From Stieleria maiorica (GTDB lineage: Bacteria; Planctomycetota; Planctomycetia; Pirellulales; Pirellulaceae): a stretch of 64,000 bases of DNA. The position numbers were made by a program, and so were the translations under genes. The notes under the pieces are model-generated. The model did not search any database. It was not told where the DNA came from and saw only the letters and a list, made by a program, of their open reading frames with translations. The stretch is taken from positions 4,648,402-4,712,401 of the forward strand of contig NZ_CP036264.1 of the NCBI RefSeq assembly GCF_008035925.1. The letters are read 5' to 3'. Position 1 is the first letter of the stretch, and each line of letters starts with the position of its first letter. Of this stretch, positions 6,981 through 50,113 are shown piece by piece.

Positions 6981-7953
6981 TGCCGCCTCCCTTCGCCGAT
7001 CGATCGAAATCCCGATTTCCCTAGTCGGTTGCGGGCATGGATCAGACTTGAGAGCGCCAAATCGAGCGGTTTGTCGGTGATCAGTTCATAGTTTCCGACG
7101 CCGGTGGATTCACAAATCGTTTCGATCTGGCGGCGATGCCGGGAAAATCGTTCGGCGTAGTTTGCCTTGGCCGCCTCCGGATCGACGTAGATTTGGCGTC
7201 CGGTTTCGGCATCGGTCACCATCGCCGGGTCTGAAAGGCCAAGATCGACTTCACCGGGATCGATGATCCGCAACAAGACGACTTCATGCCCCCTCGCACG
7301 CAGCGCCGCCAACTGCGTCTTCAGCATGTCCGGCGGCGCTAATAAATCGCTCATCAGGATCACCAGTCCGCGGCGGGGCACAAGCGAGGTGACTTGGCGC
7401 AGCGGTGCTTCGATGTCCGTGCCTTTGCCCTCGGCCGGCCGTGAAAGTTCCACCAGGATCTGGTGGAACTGTTTCGCACCGAGCTTGGCCGGCAAAAAAT
7501 CGCCCAGTTCGGCATCAAAGGTCAACACGCCAACGGCGTCGTGCTGCATCGTCAAGAAGTAGGCCAGGGTTGCGGCGACCGTTCGGGCATAGTCGATTTT
7601 CTTGTACTCGATCGATCCGTAGCTCATCGACCGGCTTTGATCGACGACCAGGTAGCAGCGTCGGTTCGTTTCGTCTTCGAACTTCTTGATGAAGTAGCGG
7701 TCGCTACGGGCGTAGAGCTTCCAATCCAGATTGCGCAGGTCATCGCCGGGAACGTAGGCACGGTACTCGCTGAATTCGATCGAACTGCCGTGGGTCGGGC
7801 TGCGGTGTAGCCCCGAGAAGAATCCTTCGACGACCGTCTTGGCGCGCAGCTTGAGACTCTTGATGCGCATCAGTGCCGACGGATCGACACCGGCGCGATC
7901 ATCCGCGTTGGACATCGTTTCGGGGGCAGACGGTGCGGCGGTCGAGACGGAGT

Positions 7954-7957
<4 letters not shown>
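6977..7957 (-). CDS. DUF58 domain protein, MoxR partner
   Basis: 326 residues, soluble, no signal peptide. It carries the DUF58 core: SIEFSEYRAYVPGDDLRNLD, then DWKLYARSDRY, then a vWA-like fold with DQSRSM as a metal-ion site near residue 122. About 30 extra residues precede the domain. DUF58 proteins nearly always travel with MoxR AAA+ ATPases and are thought to be recruited or remodelled by them. Start and stop overlap both neighbours by 4 bases (6977-6980 and 7954-7957), so translation is coupled to MoxR and BatA. Its closest relative in the window is the protein at 14069-14974, with the same motifs in the same order. Confidence 0.92.
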
Positions 7958-8943
<986 letters not shown>

Positions 8944-9048
8944 TGGCAAGTTGACTACGGGCTCCGAACAATGAAAAACTTCGCGGGCGAGACGCCACCG
9001 ATGGAAGTCGTGAATGGGAATAACGGAACAGGCATGGACGTGCGGGAT

Positions 9049-27999: not shown

Positions 28000-28082
28000 G
28001 GAGGATAAGCGAATTGGCAAGCAGACTGATTCGAAATCAGTTGCCGGGCAACCGGTTGCGGGTTCGAGTCCCGTGTCCTCCG
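28000..28082 (+). tRNA. tRNA-Ser (CGA anticodon)
   Basis: The acceptor stem pairs 28000-28006 (GGAGGAT) with 28075-28081 (GTCCTCC, one T-G pair), with discriminator G at 28082 as in bacterial tRNA-Ser. The D loop holds AATTGGCAAG. The anticodon stem ACTGA/TCAGT encloses TTCGAAA, anticodon CGA at 28032-28034, reading UCG. A long variable arm (GCCGG-GCAA-CCGGT) marks it as class II, and the T arm is GCGGG-TTCGAGT-CCCGT. CCA is not encoded. Confidence 0.95.
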
Positions 28083-28090
28083 CTGTGATC

Positions 28091-41472: not shown

Positions 41473-42927
41473 ATGACTTCACTCTCACCCAACGGACGTC
41501 AATTCCTCAATCGACGCAACTTCCTGGGCGGGTCCGCCGGGGCGTTGGGTTCGATCGCGTTATTGGATTTATTGTCCGGCGATCACCTGCTGGCGGCGCG
41601 TCCGCTGATTGATCCGGCGCGTCCGTTCGCGCCCCGTGAAAGTCACTTTCCCGGAAAGGCGAAACGCGTCGTCGTGATCTTCTGTGCCGGAGCGGTCAGC
41701 CAGCTTGAAACCTGGGACTACAAACCGGAACTGATCAAATTCGACGGCCAACCGCTTCCAGATGGGCCGGCGGTAACCTTTCAAGGTCCCGCGGGAAACT
41801 TGGCCCGGCCACAATACACGTTTCGACAACGCGGCCAGACGGGCAAGTGGGTTAGTGACATGATCCCGCACCTGGCGGAATTGACCGACGACATCGCGTT
41901 CATCCACTCGCTGACCAGCAAGAGCAACACGCACGGCCCGGCGGAAAACTTTCTTTCGACCGGGACGCCGCTGGACGGGTTCCCCAGTCTGGGATCCTGG
42001 GCCAGTTATGCGTTGGGCAGCGAGAATCAGGACTTACCCGCATATGTCGCAATCCCCGATCCACGTGGCGTCCCGCAAAATGGATCCAACAACTGGGGGC
42101 CGGGGTTCTTGCCCGCCGCGTTTCAGGGCACACCGCTCAGTTCGAAGGAGCCGATTCGACATCTGAAGGCGCCGATCGTATCGCCCGGAGCCGATCGTGC
42201 CGCACGTTCCTTGCTCCAGCAGATGAACCAACGCCATTTGCAGCAACATCCCGGCGATAACAAACTGGCCGCGCGGATCGCCAGCTATGAACTCGCAGCC
42301 AGAATGCAATTGAGTGTGCCGGAGATCACCGATTTGAGTTCCGAACCGGAGTACCTGTTGAAGAGCTACGGGGCCGATGATGAATCGAATCCGGTTCGCG
42401 CCGCATTCGCACGCAACTGCCTTCTTGCCCGCCGGTTGATCGAAAGCGGTGTCCGGTTTGTGCAGTTGTTTAACGGTGCGTATGCCAGCGGCGGGGAACT
42501 CAACTGGGACGGACACAACAAGCTAAAGGAACAATACGACAAGCACGCCGCAATCCTGGATCAACCCGCCGCCGCGATGATCAAGGACATGAAGGCGCGG
42601 GGATTGCTGGAAGACACGTTGGTGATTTGGTGCACCGAGTTCGGCCGGATGCCATTTTTCCAAAAAGGATCCAAGGGACGGGACCACAATCCCGACGGAT
42701 TCACGTGCTGGATGACCGGTGCGGGAGTCAAGCCGGGTGTCAGCCACGGTGTGACCGACGATCTGGGACAAAAGGCCGTCCAAGACGTTCATCCGTTGTA
42801 CGACTTCAACGCCACCATCCTGCATCTGCTGGGTCTGGATCATGAACGATTGACGTTCCAGCACAACGGCATCGAGCGTCGTCTGACGAATGTCGAAGGC
42901 CACGTCATCCGTGAGATCCTGGCGTAA
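41473..42927 (+). CDS. DUF1501 protein, twin-arginine exported
   Basis: 484 residues. The N-terminus [20 protein letters not shown] is a twin-arginine-type signal. DUF1501 features include [20 protein letters not shown] near residue 56, [20 protein letters not shown], and the [11 protein letters not shown] segment followed by GRDHNPDGF. The fold is alkaline phosphatase/sulfatase-like. DUF1501 and PSCyt1/DUF1549/DUF1553 genes are neighbours across planctomycetes and are likely to work together outside the cytoplasm. Length is normal for the family. Confidence 0.95.
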
Positions 42928-42961: not shown

Positions 42962-43058
42962 GCCAGCCCGCACGCGTTAGCAAGGGGCCACGCGGCGCCC
43001 CTCGCTCACGCAGCATCCCTCGCTCGCGGGGAGCCCCTCGCTCACGCGTCGGGCTGGC
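42962..43058. repeat. imperfect inverted repeat with internal CCCCTCGCTCACGC units
   Basis: GCCAGCCCGCACGCGTTAGC (42962 onward) and its near complement ending GCGTCGGGCTGGC (43033-43058) flank repeats of CCCTCGCTCACGC. It lies between the convergent ends of the DUF1501 gene and the PEP-CTERM gene and overlaps the last codons of the latter, so those residues (TVQCQPDA) derive from the repeat. Confidence 0.82.
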
Positions 43059-43956
43059 ATTGCACTGTTGGTTTTAGAGTGCGGGGGACACGTTTGCGGC
43101 GTATCGATCCGATTCCGGCGATCAACCCCAGCAGCGCGAAACACCCAGGTTCGGGGACCGCGGAAATATTCATCACCCCGACGCCCAGTCCTTCGCCGAG
43201 TCGAAAATCGAATCCGCCCGATCCGCTGGTCAGCCAGTTGTCGACGATCGGATTGCCTTGACTGTCCAGAAACGACCCGTCGCCGGGGATGTCGACCAGT
43301 CGCACGTATTGAATATTGTCCAGATCCAACAATCCCGCGGCCACCAATGCGTCGCCTTGCAATTCATCCAGATCGAACGGCGTTCCAAAGCCAGCTGCGT
43401 GTTTGCCGGCCAGGTTGTAGACATTGGTGACGTCAAAGGGCGAAAAGTTGGTTCCGAAACCTCCCGGCAAGGGACCGGTGTTTAGGCTGATACTTGGGAA
43501 TCGAGCGAAGTCGGAGCCGTTGGTGGAGACGTCGACATAGGCGAATTCGGCAAACAAGCCCGATGTGCCATTAGCATTGGTGCCGAAGGCGAACCCATTT
43601 TCGAAAATCGCAAAATCGTGTCCGGCTCCGTTGCCGATTCCGGAGGGAAACAGGACGGTCAAAAACCCCGGCGAGACGCCCGCGGCGATTTCCGCGGCAT
43701 CCAAGTCGCCCAGGCTGTTGAAACCGCCGTTTTGGTCGATCGCTGTGCTGCCACGCGGGCCGAACATCGTCCGCGTCGAATCAATCACGTCGGCCCACTC
43801 GACGATTCGTTGGTCATCGGCGGCAACAGCGCCGTCGATGGCGTGATCGGTCTCTCTCGGACCCGAATAGATTTCGGCGGACAAGGGTGACACGGACAGC
43901 AACAGCAGGATGCCGCTGAGGACACCGCTGGGACGAAAGGTGTGAAAATACTTCAT
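43042..43956 (-). CDS. PEP-CTERM surface protein under cobalamin riboswitch
   Basis: 304 residues from the ATG at 43956 (MKYFHTF); a GTG at 43977 is in frame. A signal peptide (GILLLLSVSPLSA) leads to a beta-rich body with GHDFAIFENGFAFGTNANGT and FAEFAYVDVSTNGSDFARFP. The C-terminus VPEPGCFALLGLIAGIGSIR then RKR is a PEP-CTERM sorting signal: Pro-Glu-Pro, membrane helix, basic tail. The transcript leader contains a full cobalamin aptamer (44164-44370), so expression should respond to vitamin B12. A surface role in B12 capture is the obvious inference, but no transporter gene is adjacent. Confidence 0.88.
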   Translation of the reverse strand: MKYFHTFRPSGVLSGILLLLSVSPLSAEIYSGPRETDHAIDGAVAADDQRIVEWADVIDSTRTMFGPRGSTAIDQNGGFNSLGDLDAAEIAAGVSPGFLTVLFPSGIGNGAGHDFAIFENGFAFGTNANGTSGLFAEFAYVDVSTNGSDFARFPSISLNTGPLPGGFGTNFSPFDVTNVYNLAGKHAAGFGTPFDLDELQGDALVAAGLLDLDNIQYVRLVDIPGDGSFLDSQGNPIVDNWLTSGSGGFDFRLGEGLGVGVMNISAVPEPGCFALLGLIAGIGSIRRKRVPRTLKPTVQCQPDA

Positions 43957-44009
43957 TGTAAGTCCATTGCCGAGCACGCCCCCGATCGCCGGTGCGGACC
44001 TTCACCACT

Positions 44010-44031
44010 TTTCCTTCATCGATGAAGGAAA
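44010..44031. promoter_or_regulatory. 22-bp perfect palindrome in riboswitch leader
   Basis: TTTCCTTCATC followed by GATGAAGGAAA is perfectly self-complementary. It lies about 55 bases upstream of the PEP-CTERM start codon and about 130 bases after the cobalamin aptamer on the minus-strand transcript. It could be an expression-platform hairpin or a protein operator. Confidence 0.6.
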
Positions 44032-44163
44032 CCACGGCGTGATGGAACGCGAACGCGCGGATTCGTCACAACGGCGGAAAGCAGGGAACTGTCGGTCCAA
44101 TGCGCGATTCGACTCACGCATTGCAACGTTTGCCTCAATCCAGGAAGGCACGAAAACGTCTTG

Positions 44164-44370
44164 TCGAGATAGGTCTTCTGACTCACCACCGTTTCCGTTT
44201 GCTCACAGCCTTCTCATTCGCGCACCCCGCGAACAATGGCTCTTCTTTAGAACGAAGCAACGGATGCGATTCGTTAGGATCGCGAGTGGCACACAGCGGC
44301 CGGACCGTCCCGGAATTTCACCGGAGTTCCCTGTTCACTCGCCCGGAAGCATCCGGGCGAGTCATCTCGA
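44164..44370 (-). promoter_or_regulatory. cobalamin riboswitch aptamer
   Basis: Read on the minus strand, the closing P1 stem pairs TCGAGAT (44370-44364) with ATCTCGA (44170-44164). A hairpin at 44337-44362 (ACTCGCCCGG and its complement) precedes AACAGGGAA. Next come the conserved core CCGGTGAAATTCCGGG (44309-44324), GGACGG, and CGGCCGCTGTG just after. The 3' consensus AGTCAGAAGACCTATC lies at 44168-44183. These parts are in the right order and spacing for the B12 element, and the next minus-strand gene is the PEP-CTERM protein 207 bases downstream. Confidence 0.93.
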
Positions 44371-44470
44371 ACGGCGGCTAGGATAGAACAAGATGCCCGG
44401 CTGTCAACACGGTGTTCGATCACGCGACAAACCGTCCGTCATCTCGCAGATTGCGGGCCGATGGGTGGAG

Positions 44471-45043
44471 TCACTCATGCCCAGCGTCAGCGTGATCATG
44501 GCCGGCGTGGTCGTGGCCCGCGTGGTCGTGGCCCGCGTGGTCATGGTCATGTGCCACATTTCCCGTGTAGGACTTGCCGTCGATTTCGATCACGACGGCA
44601 CCTTCGGCTCCGGCGTCGAGCCAGTCGTGCAATTTCTCGTCGGCGGAATTGAACCGCGAGGACTGTCCCGGCGGGTCATCGGAGTCTGGATCGGCCGCCA
44701 AGTCGAACGACGCGACTTGGCCGTCATGCTTCAAACTGAGCATCAGCTTTTCCGCCGCGATCGGGACCTGTTTGCTGGCCGATCCGTCCAAGACATACAT
44801 CATAATGCCGTCTTCGCCGTGCACCAGTTCGGCATGATAGGCCTCTTTCCCCAGCTCCACCAAGTCGCCGCCGTGGGGGCCGTGCTCGGGGTGCCCATGG
44901 TGATCGTGGCTTGTCGCGTGATCGCTACTGTCACTCTGGGACGTCGGACCGCCGCTGTCCGATGACGGATCACTCGTGCCTCCGCATCCAGCCAACACCA
45001 CGACCAGACCGAGCAATGACATAAGACGAAAGGTGAACTTCAT
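44471..45043 (-). CDS. His-rich lipoprotein of metal-efflux locus
   Basis: 190 residues from the ATG at 45043 (MKFTFRL). The signal peptide ends in a lipobox (VVVLAGCGG), so the mature protein is probably lipid-anchored. His clusters occur at both ends: HATSHDHHGHPEHGPHGG near residue 40 and HDHAGHDHAGHDHAGHDHAD at the C-terminus, the latter encoded by a 15-base tandem repeat. The middle (about 60-165) is a small beta-rich domain. It lies 50 bases downstream of the RND pump gene in the same direction. Binding of zinc, copper or nickel is likely; which one cannot be told. Confidence 0.83.
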   Translation of the reverse strand: MKFTFRLMSLLGLVVVLAGCGGTSDPSSDSGGPTSQSDSSDHATSHDHHGHPEHGPHGGDLVELGKEAYHAELVHGEDGIMMYVLDGSASKQVPIAAEKLMLSLKHDGQVASFDLAADPDSDDPPGQSSRFNSADEKLHDWLDAGAEGAVVIEIDGKSYTGNVAHDHDHAGHDHAGHDHAGHDHADAGHE

Positions 45044-45093
45044 TTCAATCTCTTTCAAAAGGGGGAAGACTTATTGGAATCGAACAGGTCCTG

Positions 45094-48000
45094 TTACGAC
45101 CTGTCTTTGAGAATCTGACGGCTGGCGTGGCGACCGACCGACCAAAACAGCGCCGGGCGGACGAAAAACTCGGCCAACGTGCTGGTGATCAGCCCGCCGA
45201 CGATGACCGTCGCGATCGGATACAGAATTTCTTTGCCCGGTTCTCCTGCGGCCAAAGCCAAGGGCAGCAAACCGATGCCGCTGGTCAGCGCGGTCATCAA
45301 CACCGGTGCCATGCGCTCCTGCCCGGCTCGTTTAACCATCTGACGCGTCCACGATTCGCCTTCGTGTTCGACCAGATGCAAATAGTGGTTCAGCAACAAG
45401 ATGCCGTTGCGGCTGGCGATGCCACACAAGGAGATGAATCCGACCATCGCCGCGACGGTCAGGTTTTGGTCGGTGATCACCAAAGCGGCGACGGCACCGA
45501 TGAATGCGGTCGGTAGCGCGACCAAGACCTGCAGCGAGAAATTCACATTGCCGAACAATGTGTACAGCACCAAAAACATCCCGATCAGCGCCACGACCGA
45601 CAAAACGGCCAGACGTCGCGATGCCGACTGCTGGCTTTCGAATTGCCCGCCGTACTCGATGAAGTAGCCCGGTTCCAGTTCCATCTCGGCCAGCTTGGTT
45701 TTGATTTCATTGACCACATCGACGACTCCCCGCTGGGACACGTTGGCCTGCAGGACGATCCGGCGGCGCACTTGCTCGCGTTTGATCATGTTCGGTCCGC
45801 TGCTTTCGTAAATCCGAGCGACAGCCTCCAAGGGAACGACGCCGCCGTCAGAAAGGGGAATGACGAGCCGGCGGAGTTTGGAGACGTCTTCGCGGAACGG
45901 TTCGTCCAAACGCACCAACAAATCAAAGGTGCGTTGCCCGAGCAACACCTGACTGACAACTTCTCCGTTCATCGCGGTTTGCACGATCTCCATCACGTGT
46001 GCCGGCCGCAAACCGTTTTGCGTTAAAGCGCTCCGATCGAGTTCGATGCGCAATTGAGGAATATTGGTCTGTTGTTCGATCAACACATCCGTCAAACCAT
46101 CGATGTTCGCGATCCGCCGTTTCATCTCCTCCGCCTTGTTGCGAAGCACGTCCAGGTCATCGCCGTAGAGTTTGATCCCGATTTGGGCCTTCACCCCGGA
46201 GATCATGTGGCTGATCAAATGGGCGAGCGGCTGTTCGGTGCTGGAGACGACGCCGGGAATCTCGTCCATCGCGTGTCGGATCTCTCGGATCGTTTCTTCG
46301 CGATCGGCATCCTCGGCGATTTCCAAATACAGTTCCGAGACGTTGACGCCTTCGGCATGTTCGTCCAGCTCCGCGCGACCGGTGCGCCGGGCGATGGATT
46401 TGACGTTCTCGACTTCCATCAACCGTTGCTGCACGGATTGACCGATCTTGTTGCTCGTCGCCAACGAAGTCCCGGGGGCAAGCAGCGCGTTGACTTGTAC
46501 GGAACCTTCGTTGAAAGGCGGCAAAAAATCACGCTCCAATTGCGTCACGGCAAACATTGCAAACGCCACCAACACCGCGGCGATTCCCAAGACGGGACCG
46601 GGCATCCGGGTGCTGAGATCGATCATCAATCCGGCAATCCCCTTAAACCGTTCCAGCAATCGGCCTTCGGTTGTTGTTTCACCGCCGAGCCATGATTCGA
46701 GGACACGAATCAGGATCCAGATGATCGGCGCCAATCCGATCGCCCACCAGATCGCGGCGCCGAGCAAACCGACGGACCAGCCGATCAGCTCGGTCGCACG
46801 CGGTAAAACCCAGTAGACGGCCAAGGCGGAGATCCCCAGCGACAACACCGGCACGACGTACCGCCAGAACTTGCGCCCGGTCAACAGCAGCGATGCCAGT
46901 ACCGGCGTCACCGTCAGCGACACGGCCAAAGAGACGACGAGAGAGACGACGTAGCCGGTTGCCAAGGGGACGAACAACTTGCCTTCCATCCCTTCCAGGG
47001 CGAACAGCGGAAGAAAGACCAGCACGACGATCGCTGTTCCGTAAACGACACTGCTGCGGATTTCGATGCTAGCGTCGTAAACAACTTTCAACACCGGCCG
47101 CGGGTTGTCGCTCGCGCGGTTCTCTTTCAATCGCCGAAAGATGTTCTCCACATCAACGATCGCGTCATCGACCAGTTCACCGATGCCAACCGCCAATCCG
47201 CCCAGTGTCATCGTGTTGATCGACAATCCGAACGCGGCGAACACGCACGCGGTGGCGATGATCGAAAGCGGGATCGCGGTCAGCGTGATGAACGTCGTGC
47301 GGAAATTCAACAAGAATAGAAACAGAATCACCAACACCAAAACCCCGCCGTCGGCCAACGCTTCCACAACGTTTTCAATCGCACGGTCGATGAAGGATCG
47401 CTGGGAATAGACGTTGGCGACGCGGATGTCGTCCGGCAGTGCCGTTTTTAATTCCTCCAACGCTTCTTCAATCGCACGATCGACGGTCCGCGTATCGCTG
47501 CCCGGTTGTTTGTTGACGGTCAGCACCACCGCGGGGCCGCCATCGACGTTGCCAGCGCGATCCCGGACATAGGCGGATGAGTCGCCGCGCATCTCCTGGA
47601 CGCCCTGGACAACCCGGGCGACATCCCCGAGCGTGATCGGGCGCCCGGAACGCAACGTGATCGCGATCTCGTTCAATTCGCTGAGACTGGTGATCCGTCC
47701 CAGACCGCGGACCAGCAACTCATTGGGACCGCGCTGGTCCAAGTAACCGCCGGTGGCGTTCAAGTTCGCCTCGGCCACGGCGGTGTGAACGTCGTGCATC
47801 GTCAGATCAAACGAACGCAATTTGTCGGGATCCACCAGGACCTGGTACTGCATCCGTCCACCGCCGATCGTGAACACTTGCGACACGCCGGGGATGGTCA
47901 ACAGACGCTGGCGGACGACCCAATCGGCCAAGGTCCGCACCTCCATCGGCGGCGTTGTTCCTCCTTCGCTCCACATCCCATACATCAGGATCTGGCCCAT

Positions 48001-48405
48001 GATCGATGAAATCGGTGCCAGCGTCGGCTTGATGCCTTCGGGCAGCTGCTCGGTGGCCAATTGCAACCGCTCGTTGACGATCTGGCGATCGTTATAGATG
48101 TCGGTGCCCCAACCGAATTCGACGTCGATGACCGACAGCCCGATGCCGCTGCTGCTACGCACCGCTTCGACACCACTGGCCCCGTTGAACGCGGTTTCCA
48201 GCGGGAACGTGATCAGTGCTTCGACCTCCTCGGGCGCCATCCCGGGCGCTTCGGTGATGACGACGACGCGGGGGCGATTCAGGTTCGGAAAGACGTCGAT
48301 CGGCAGACGCGTCGTTTGATAACCGCCGACGGTCAGCAGGATGACCGCAGCGGCCAACACGATCAGCCGATTTCCTAGTGAGAGTGAAATGATTTTGTCT
48401 AACAT
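45094..48405 (-). CDS. heavy-metal efflux RND permease (CzcA/CusA-type)
   Basis: 1103 residues. The start MLDKIISLSLGNRLIVLAAA, the porter sequence PIDVFPNLNRPRVVVITEAP and the TM4 motif GIGELVDDAIVDVENIFRRL mark the HME-RND family, proton-driven pumps for divalent or monovalent metals. About 12 helices are visible in the usual two blocks. Length exceeds the usual 1020-1070 because of added hydrophobic sequence between the halves (about 510-585). The HlyD adaptor gene is 67 bases upstream. No outer-membrane TolC-like gene is present in the window. The metal cannot be read from the sequence. Confidence 0.95.
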   Translation of the reverse strand: MLDKIISLSLGNRLIVLAAAVILLTVGGYQTTRLPIDVFPNLNRPRVVVITEAPGMAPEEVEALITFPLETAFNGASGVEAVRSSSGIGLSVIDVEFGWGTDIYNDRQIVNERLQLATEQLPEGIKPTLAPISSIMGQILMYGMWSEGGTTPPMEVRTLADWVVRQRLLTIPGVSQVFTIGGGRMQYQVLVDPDKLRSFDLTMHDVHTAVAEANLNATGGYLDQRGPNELLVRGLGRITSLSELNEIAITLRSGRPITLGDVARVVQGVQEMRGDSSAYVRDRAGNVDGGPAVVLTVNKQPGSDTRTVDRAIEEALEELKTALPDDIRVANVYSQRSFIDRAIENVVEALADGGVLVLVILFLFLLNFRTTFITLTAIPLSIIATACVFAAFGLSINTMTLGGLAVGIGELVDDAIVDVENIFRRLKENRASDNPRPVLKVVYDASIEIRSSVVYGTAIVVLVFLPLFALEGMEGKLFVPLATGYVVSLVVSLAVSLTVTPVLASLLLTGRKFWRYVVPVLSLGISALAVYWVLPRATELIGWSVGLLGAAIWWAIGLAPIIWILIRVLESWLGGETTTEGRLLERFKGIAGLMIDLSTRMPGPVLGIAAVLVAFAMFAVTQLERDFLPPFNEGSVQVNALLAPGTSLATSNKIGQSVQQRLMEVENVKSIARRTGRAELDEHAEGVNVSELYLEIAEDADREETIREIRHAMDEIPGVVSSTEQPLAHLISHMISGVKAQIGIKLYGDDLDVLRNKAEEMKRRIANIDGLTDVLIEQQTNIPQLRIELDRSALTQNGLRPAHVMEIVQTAMNGEVVSQVLLGQRTFDLLVRLDEPFREDVSKLRRLVIPLSDGGVVPLEAVARIYESSGPNMIKREQVRRRIVLQANVSQRGVVDVVNEIKTKLAEMELEPGYFIEYGGQFESQQSASRRLAVLSVVALIGMFLVLYTLFGNVNFSLQVLVALPTAFIGAVAALVITDQNLTVAAMVGFISLCGIASRNGILLLNHYLHLVEHEGESWTRQMVKRAGQERMAPVLMTALTSGIGLLPLALAAGEPGKEILYPIATVIVGGLITSTLAEFFVRPALFWSVGRHASRQILKDRS

Positions 48406-48472
48406 GGGCGCCGAGCGCGGAGTGGCCGTTGGATGATTGAGTACGTGCGTTGCGGGACGGGGACGCGGTCGA

Positions 48473-49978
48473 TCAGTGATTGTGCCCGGCGTGGGGATCG
48501 ATCGCGCCGCCCGACCGGTTCTTCATCGCCATCTGCAATTGATGGGCGCCGCCCACGACGATCGTTTGCCCAGGCCAGACCTGACCGTCGTTGGCAACCG
48601 CCACGTGCAGCGAATCGCGGGCGAGGACAGAAACGGGCACGCGGTCAAAGTGATCGCCGTTTTCGACGAACAGATAACGCTCGGCACCTTCCTCGGCCAC
48701 GGCGTCTTTGGGGACGACGATTGCGTCGTCGATCTGTGAAACAGGCAGCCGCACGGTCAGCCGCTGGCCAGGCTTGTAACGCCAGCTGATGTAGCGTTTC
48801 TCACCGTGCTGCTCGGTCCGTTCGACCTTGTTGGTCAACGAAACGTAGAACGGCAGGGCGCGCGACCGGCGATCCACTTCGGTTCCGATGTAGATCACCT
48901 TTAGCCCGTCGATCAGCTCCGGCCCTTCGCCGGACGATTCAATCACCGCTTGGACATTCGCGCCGTGATCGGCCGCATCTCGCAAGGCTTTTCCGTCGCG
49001 TTGAAACGCTTGGCCTTCGATCAACACCTTGCTGAAGTCTGAGAGTTGAGCCAATTCGTCGCCCGCGGCAACCGATTCCCCACGGCGAGCAAGCAACTCG
49101 GTGACCAAGAATTCTGCGTCCACGTGCCGATGGTCCTCGGTCACGGCCGGTGGCTGCAAAAGCGACGCGTATCGATGTGGGGACGATTCCGACAGACGAT
49201 CGTTTGCGTCGCCGAGCGATTCGTGGTGCAACGAGTCGTCTTCGTGAATCAGCGGAGCGTAGACCGTGATCTCACGAATCAAAACCCGCGTGCGCTCGAT
49301 CTCTTTGATTTGGTTTTCCGTCAATCCGTGCAACAACATCGCCTGCCGAGCCGCACGCACACCTGCCATCAATTTGTCGCGTTCGTACTGGCGTGCGAGC
49401 AATGTTTTTCCGGCGATCGCGCCTGAAGTGGCGATCGACGACAACCGATCGATCTCCCGCTGTTCCACGTCCAATTCACCAAGCTTCGTCAGAAACGTTT
49501 CCTGCGTGTTGACCAGGTCTTGGTGGGTCAACCGAAGTGTGAACAGCGGTGCACCGCTTTGGACCAACTCGCCTCGGGAAACCAGAATTGAATTCAAAAC
49601 TCCCGTCAGCGGCGATGTGACCGCGATGTGCGTTCGTCCCGGCCACTGCGTCACCACACCGGGGACTTCGATGTATTGCGTGTACGGTTTCACCTCGATC
49701 GGTGATGTGCGCAGCCGCAGGTTGGCGCGTGCTTGCTTGCTCAATTCGATCGACTGGGCGTCGGAGTGGCCCTCGTGGCCGTGGTCGTGACCTTGGTGGG
49801 CGTCGCCTTCGTGATCTGCATGATCCGAGTGATCATCCACCGTTTGACGATTGTCTTTACCAATCCCCAGCATCGGTGTGGTGGTCACCCAAACACCGAC
49901 GGCGATGGTCACGATGATTGCGACGACCGTCGTCGACACGGTACGAACGCGCGCAGGCGAAAGGTTTAACCCAGGCAT
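48473..49978 (-). CDS. RND efflux adaptor (HlyD/CusB-type) with His-rich ends
   Basis: 501 residues from the ATG at 49978 (MPGLNLSPARV); the frame runs on to 50080 without family features. One N-terminal helix (TVVAIIVTIAVGVWV) anchors it. A His-rich segment follows (DHSDHADHEGDAHQGHDHGH), then the lipoyl-like half (VTSPLTGVLNSILVSRGELV), a helical hairpin, beta-barrel and membrane-proximal domains. It ends in HAGHNH. Such adaptors join the RND pump to an outer-membrane channel; the His-rich parts suggest that it binds the exported metal. It is co-directional with the pump gene. Confidence 0.93.
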   Translation of the reverse strand: MPGLNLSPARVRTVSTTVVAIIVTIAVGVWVTTTPMLGIGKDNRQTVDDHSDHADHEGDAHQGHDHGHEGHSDAQSIELSKQARANLRLRTSPIEVKPYTQYIEVPGVVTQWPGRTHIAVTSPLTGVLNSILVSRGELVQSGAPLFTLRLTHQDLVNTQETFLTKLGELDVEQREIDRLSSIATSGAIAGKTLLARQYERDKLMAGVRAARQAMLLHGLTENQIKEIERTRVLIREITVYAPLIHEDDSLHHESLGDANDRLSESSPHRYASLLQPPAVTEDHRHVDAEFLVTELLARRGESVAAGDELAQLSDFSKVLIEGQAFQRDGKALRDAADHGANVQAVIESSGEGPELIDGLKVIYIGTEVDRRSRALPFYVSLTNKVERTEQHGEKRYISWRYKPGQRLTVRLPVSQIDDAIVVPKDAVAEEGAERYLFVENGDHFDRVPVSVLARDSLHVAVANDGQVWPGQTIVVGGAHQLQMAMKNRSGGAIDPHAGHNH

Positions 49979-50113
49979 GGTGTGGCTTCCAAACAGGGGA
50001 GCTCGTCCGCGTTGAAGCGAAATCCAACGCGGCGGATCACCGCAATGCGTTGCTGACATCAGCGGCGACAGAAATGGCAAAAAGGATCGAACGCAATGAC
50101 GTCGATCGCGTGA

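Follow-up and report, generated by a model that had tools for sequence, protein, structure and literature searches.

A cobalamin riboswitch in Stieleria maiorica precedes the gene of a probable PEP-CTERM-sorted, BtuH-like surface B12 binder

What does a cobalamin riboswitch control in Stieleria maiorica when the gene behind it encodes neither a recognizable B12 enzyme nor a transporter? The question arises from a stretch of 64,000 nucleotides, referred to here as the window, for which a first-pass annotation had proposed a textbook aptamer followed by a single gene for an anchored surface protein, serving to capture or deliver B12 when the cofactor is scarce. The features on which the argument depends are the following.

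44380..44407, minus strand: promoter-like site TTGACA-16-TATCCT, a consensus match only, whose -10 element abuts the aptamer 5' end
44150..44384, minus strand: cobalamin riboswitch aptamer (RF00174), found by cmscan over the full model (1-189/189)
44123..44160, minus strand: conserved hairpin just 3' of P1, UGCCUUCCUGGAUUGAGGCA, with ACGUUU/AACGUU flanks in the window
43042..43956, minus strand: gene for the putative surface protein P0001, 304 aa, of a BtuH-like domain family
43876..43956, minus strand: signal-peptide-like segment, residues 1-27, recognized by eye
43171..43863, minus strand: family domain, residues about 32-262, delimited by alignment A1, with no Pfam model found
43591..43617, minus strand: DFAIFENGF motif, residues 114-122, aligned to BtuH2 pocket residues
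43093..43161, minus strand: putative PEP-CTERM sorting tail, residues 266-288, with VPEP, a hydrophobic stretch and RRKR

A covariance-model search had been suggested as a check on the element, and cmscan, run on the whole window, returned a strong score of 68.5 bits (E 8.8e-15) where the gathering score is 31.5, so that the failure to score named as contrary to the proposal did not occur. The description of the aptamer as textbook was upheld, the alignment to RF00174 displaying P1, the CCGGUGAAAUUCCGGG core and the 3' AGUCAGAAGACCU; the riboswitch was also confirmed where it had been placed, but its 5' end lies 14 nt beyond position 44370, where it had been thought to begin. In an alignment of the leaders of five species, the aptamer core is largely invariant. 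One promoter-like site was found in 43900-44560, in comparison with 0.2 expected in shuffles, and since this sigma-70-like site ends at the aptamer start, transcription probably begins with the aptamer itself. The core of the hairpin that follows P1 is invariant in the five leaders, and the hairpin is also present in the computed fold. A kissing contact between L5 and L13 is typical of the cobalamin riboswitch class, and the hairpin loop CUGGAUU can pair with the aptamer loop GGUCCGG, as judged by eye from the printed loops, which makes the two a candidate L5-L13 kissing loop. A simple terminator scan of the leader (43900-44560) found no intrinsic terminator and the folding of the stretch 3' of the aptamer is no stronger than that of shuffled sequences (z -0.86), neither result pointing to an expression platform. 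Just upstream, the same strand carries RND-type heavy-metal efflux genes (44471-50080, minus strand, assigned by eye), and the region also encodes a small protein that ends in a His-rich tail, HDHAGHDH; elsewhere in the window, a tRNA-Ser (CGA) was found by ARAGORN and Rfam at 28000-28083 on the plus strand.

The P0001 gene is indeed the only downstream gene on its strand. The next one, at 41473-42927, is convergent on the opposite strand, so that the riboswitch transcript probably carries the P0001 gene alone. An alternative in-frame GTG start at 43977 would yield a protein of 311 aa. Pfam and NCBIfam scans of P0001 show no enzyme or transporter domain, as the first-pass annotation had stated. 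The VPEP, hydrophobic and RRKR elements of the tail are visible, but the PEP-CTERM scores (15.5 of 20.7 bits with Pfam, 15.7 of 16 with NCBIfam) fall slightly under the curated cut-offs. Two relatives, at loci L049 and L063, exceed the Pfam PEP-CTERM cut-off. The signal-like segment of P0001 contains no Cys, and no lipobox was seen by eye. Within the genome of 9,894,293 bases, assembled as one contig, there is no second full-length copy of P0001; named close relatives come from Planctomycetes bacterium TBK1r and Rhodopirellula sp. JC639, and a scan of viral contigs with the family profile A1 (27 members, L052 being omitted for its unclear 5' frame) found no relatives there. A structure model built from five sequences, those of the window and of loci L040-L043, reached a mean pLDDT of 34.2 and a pTM of 0.36.

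The association of this family with the riboswitch was then surveyed. Among 98 genomes searched, including that of the window, 26 contain a homologue at E 1e-5 or better, and the neighbourhoods of all 25 homologues other than the window's were examined for RF00174. The element was found at gathering score, upstream and on the same strand, in 24 of the 25; at the single miss (L054) 25 bases separate the match from the contig end. To avoid picking loci by nearness, an even draw of 392 genomes from the phylum was also used. With no more than six candidates scored in each genome, at least 35 of these genomes reached a family match at E 1e-8, and removal of the three that had contributed to the profile left 32 for the linkage count. 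In 28 of the 32, an RF00174 site precedes the family match on its own strand at a distance of no more than 5 kb, where 0.03 would be expected given how many sites there are and how large the genomes are; by itself the riboswitch is widespread, being present in 337 of the 392 genomes at E 0.001. The four misses comprise a weak family match inside a 5,243-aa frame (G050), a genome that is 73% complete and in which no RF00174 was found (G150), a match 137 bases from the contig start (G188), and a locus with 975 upstream bases in its contig, within which a DUF4465 is located (G411). RF00174 also occurs at three of the four named loci L040-L043, of which L040 is the same locus as L046 and L041 the same as L044, and the verrucomicrobial L042 shows none at gathering score within 12.6 kb. 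The survey of homologues that had been recommended thus came out in favour of the proposal, with riboswitch linkage in most loci examined and B12-type genes in many. Two unusual arrangements were seen along the way: two RF00174 sites in tandem upstream of a family gene (G170:C200:1189-1767) and a pair of divergent sites (G473:C53:19018-19393).

Outside Planctomycetota, the family was followed into the phylum of the Flavobacteriales locus L043, taken as Bacteroidota, in which 40 of 345 genomes match at E 1e-6. Thirteen of the 40 matching neighbourhoods were examined, and nine contain RF00174, each time upstream on the same strand; at L110, L113, L116 and L118 none was found at gathering score in the stretch examined. 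With the L043 proteins as queries, a TonB receptor was found on the same strand in six of the 13 and a DUF5074-type propeller in eight, and five neighbourhoods (L106, L107, L108, L115 and L117) combine riboswitch, TonB receptor, DUF5074 propeller and family member. L043 itself reads, in order, riboswitch, a T9SS-tailed protein, a T9SS-tailed family member, a TonB receptor, a DUF5074 protein (BtuG-like) and a Peripla_BP_2 protein (BtuF-like), the last found by these queries in no other of the Bacteroidota neighbourhoods. The sorting tail seems to follow the host, with PEP-CTERM in planctomycetes and type IX in L043 and, as recognized by eye, in others of these Bacteroidota neighbourhoods. At L106, a CobS-like (cobalamin synthase) gene, assigned by eye, stands at 336-1217, just upstream of the operon of riboswitch, BtuB, BtuG and family gene.

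What the family domain is was approached by comparison of profiles with the PDB. Profile A1 gave one significant match, to residues 379-477 of 8BLW chain B (E 1.4e-4). Profile A3, with 24 members of which two are common to A1, draws on 14 of the 21 distant loci L085-L105, leaving out L087, L091, L092, L098, L099, L101 and L102; it matched 8BLW_B (E 1.6e-5) and 7BIZ_A (E 0.042) and nothing else up to E 10. According to PMC10404256, 8BLW is the BtuB1G1 complex, in which the C-terminal part of BtuG1 is an H-domain homologous to BtuH2, and 7BIZ is BtuH2 with B12. Profile A4, built from nine close Bacteroidota members, found no BtuH at E up to 10, nor did a single-sequence phmmer search with P0001, so the homology to BtuH is a remote one.

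The alignment nevertheless reaches into the ligand pocket. According to PMC8941943, Asn399 and Gln333 of BtuH2 contact the phosphate and ribose of B12, and Phe401 lies beside the lower ligand. Residues N299, Q233 and F301 of the aligned chain fit this numbering with one offset of 100, deduced from these three residues. In an ungapped part of the alignment, N120 and F122 of DFAIFENGF stand opposite N299 and F301, which would place them at BtuH2 Asn399 and Phe401. Asn occupies the Asn399 position in 27 of 27 members of A1 and 24 of 24 of A3, and Phe the Phe401 position in 22 of 27 and 24 of 24, respectively. For Gln333 no clear conserved counterpart was seen by eye in the family, and the further contacts given for BtuH2, His476, Tyr510, Trp511 and Trp577, fall outside the alignable part. 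Membership of P0001 in the BtuH family is, on this sequence comparison, plausible but remote, and it is probable that the protein works like BtuH. Like BtuH2 and the BtuG1 H-domain of B. thetaiotaomicron (7BIZ, 8BLW), P0001 appears to be exported and is encoded in a cobalamin-riboswitch locus; unlike BtuH, it has a putative PEP-CTERM tail instead of a lipid anchor, no PKD/Ig domain was found in it, and the nearest host TonB-plug gene lies about 90 kb from its locus.

Two other identities were considered. P0001 as a DUF4465 protein was rejected, there being no match to PF14717 at E 1, and the 24 members of A3 have no match to PF14717 or any other Pfam model at E 0.01. Seven DUF4465 proteins from the same set of loci, which served as positive control, match 9HMU (E 9.1e-42) and 9FCT (E 5.1e-32). 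P0001 resembles BtuJ/DUF4465 (IPR027828, a B12-binding jelly-roll) in being riboswitch-linked, apparently exported and part of the same regulon, and differs in that its domain has no Pfam match. A weak similarity to the LIC_13355 family lipoprotein (NF033170) has an E of 6.3e-4 and 19 bits against a curated cut-off of 120; seven of the nine Bacteroidota members match this model at E 0.01, the best at 2.3e-9. A word search of a LIC_13355 paper (PMC11891782) finds no B12, cobalamin or TonB.

The planctomycete neighbourhoods add recurrent partners. DUF4465 is fused to the family gene or in one run with it in 14 of the 24 riboswitch-linked loci, and DUF1559 prepilin-like proteins are present in 17 of the 24 (that of L048 assigned by Pfam, separately from the others); in 14 of the 24, DUF1559 comes first among DUF1559, DUF4465 and family gene. 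The fusions include a single 573-aa protein with DUF4465 and family domain at L049 and an 800-aa frame in G325. The four proteins of L065-L068, 1,517-2,003 aa long, each hold a family domain with two or three DUF4465 stretches; two of them carry a dockerin, and L065 runs off its contig. By their domain content, these giants are apparent multi-site B12 binders. DUF4465 is not obligatory: when the genome of the window is added to the 32 from the phylum draw, only six of the resulting 33 contain it.

The host genome also holds this partner set. Two RF00174 sites are present in its 9.89 Mb, with 150 of 576 candidates scored; among these, the other site is G000:C1:8708091-8707834, and it precedes a DUF1559 gene and then a DUF4465 gene whose product has a PEP-CTERM-like tail (15.4 of 20.7 bits). 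The DUF1559 gene is located as follows.

L010:8822-9736, G000:C1 about 8706821-8707735: DUF1559 gene behind the second riboswitch of the host

At L047, L050 and L052 the one RF00174 of the stretch is followed by all three genes, that of the family, DUF1559 and DUF4465, so that in the window's genome the set appears to be divided between two loci with a riboswitch apiece. Of 72 DUF1559 matches in the host genome, several belong to one and the same gene; the total seems far too low for DUF1559 to recur beside the riboswitch by chance. Further unannotated proteins lie between riboswitch and family gene at L058 (5997-7019), L061 (7670-8959), L062 (5822-7165) and L064 (5953-7155). Their PEP-CTERM tails pass the Pfam cut-off at L058 and L064, stay below it at L062 and were recognized by eye at L061; by eye the four proteins show propeller-like repeats, and three of them clearly form one family. 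As to a possible BtuG-like nature, a profile of all four with the L042 N-terminus matched neither BtuG nor YncE when compared with the PDB at E up to 1. At L061, a diphthamide-synthase-like gene (PF01902, 6649-7638) lies between the 7670-8959 protein and the family gene, in one riboswitch run.

A planctomycete B12 capture with an architecture of its own may be sketched from these arrangements: a BtuH-like domain with one to three DUF4465 modules, in proteins of up to 1,500-2,000 residues, held outside the cell by exosortase sorting or dockerin instead of lipids and co-regulated with a DUF1559 pseudopilin, often the first gene of the operon, which may present the loaded proteins or pull them across the envelope. 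As a whole, such a system is possible, if doubtful.

Placement in a B12 regulon does not by itself make a protein a binder. P0001 could be a non-binding accessory comparable to BtuL, a scaffold for matrix or vesicles or an adaptor between BtuJ and the transporter. BtuL of B. theta is encoded within an uptake operon, yet no binding of cobalamin by it was seen (PMC12751083), so that membership of such an operon is no proof of binding; the protein also favours an early release of vesicles. The BtuH match of our family spans only about 90-100 residues, and the adjoining DUF4465, often present, could do the binding. Against an accessory role, the Asn and Phe positions of the BtuH2 pocket are conserved, and the genes of the window genome, L044, L045 and L046 stand behind their own riboswitch with no DUF4465 following the family gene in the stretches examined. 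We regard an accessory role as unlikely. It is highly improbable that the riboswitch controls the gene for another reason, either because P0001 helps to replace a B12-dependent process or because it is a matrix protein of the usual kind that was drawn into a B12 regulon. B12-independent isozymes, metE among them, can likewise be under cobalamin riboswitches (PMC11260477), and PEP-CTERM proteins have been tied to exopolysaccharide and floc formation; yet P0001 has no enzyme domain, operons of the Bacteroidota homologues also encode a TonB receptor, a propeller and, in one case, a BtuF-like protein, and the family domain is fused to DUF4465. That the linkage merely reflects vertical inheritance of one ancestral neighbourhood, uninformative on function, can hardly be entertained, for although two flanking genes of the window, by eye those of an RND-type pump and a DUF1501-like protein, recur at the locus of the closest relative (L044, JC639), gene order varies widely: the family gene may lead, follow DUF1559 or DUF4465, or be fused, and its linkage to the riboswitch is kept in many families of Planctomycetota as well as in Bacteroidota.

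Surface capture of B12, as the first-pass annotation had it, is therefore retained as the best explanation, its homologues being linked to cobalamin riboswitches and many of them to B12-type genes. The riboswitch-linked relatives, the fusions and operons with B12-type proteins and the distant likeness to BtuH together make P0001 probably a B12 scavenger. It is likely, in our judgement, that P0001 is a riboswitch-driven, PEP-CTERM-sorted, BtuH-like surface binder of B12 within a regulon of two loci. From this we infer B12 binding, OFF-switching, a surface location and hand-over to a transporter. In such a scheme, low intracellular cobalamin would let the riboswitch permit P0001 expression, the protein would be sorted to the outer surface or matrix, and its loop pocket, including the invariant Asn of the FEN-x-F motif, would bind cobamides outside the cell; surface-bound cobamides would then raise the local supply for uptake. 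The P0001 locus and the DUF1559-DUF4465 (BtuJ-type) locus would form one split B12-scavenging regulon. As candidates for the route inward, the host genome has four TonB-plug matches and a single FecCD-type permease match (38.1 bits against a cut-off of 26.5, positions 85-309 of 311) in a 623-aa frame.

Production at low B12, with cobamides held outside the cell, is suggested by analogy to the B. theta operons and to the DUF4465 binders. Mucisphaera, which contributes one of the latter, is a planctomycete. According to two papers, the promoters of the B. theta cobamide-uptake operons are nearly shut by B12 (PMC12751083), and eight distantly related DUF4465 members bind B12, among them one from Mucisphaera (PMC13398666).

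Surface B12-capture proteins under B12 riboswitches are a kind already known: gut Bacteroides have them, and a 2026 paper adds DUF4465 binders from other phyla. New here are a domain family without Pfam match, its PEP-CTERM and dockerin forms, the apparent multi-site giants and the DUF1559 partner. A search of open-licence PubMed Central found no publication joining these proteins, planctomycetes and B12, which does not prove their absence from print. The analysis thus adds a riboswitch-linked domain family in Planctomycetota and Bacteroidota, remotely tied to BtuH, and draws attention to DUF1559, a large family without known function, whose members recur in B12 regulons. A PEP-CTERM protein of unknown function becomes directly testable by biochemistry, and the proposal predicts how free-living planctomycetes may compete for a scarce cofactor.
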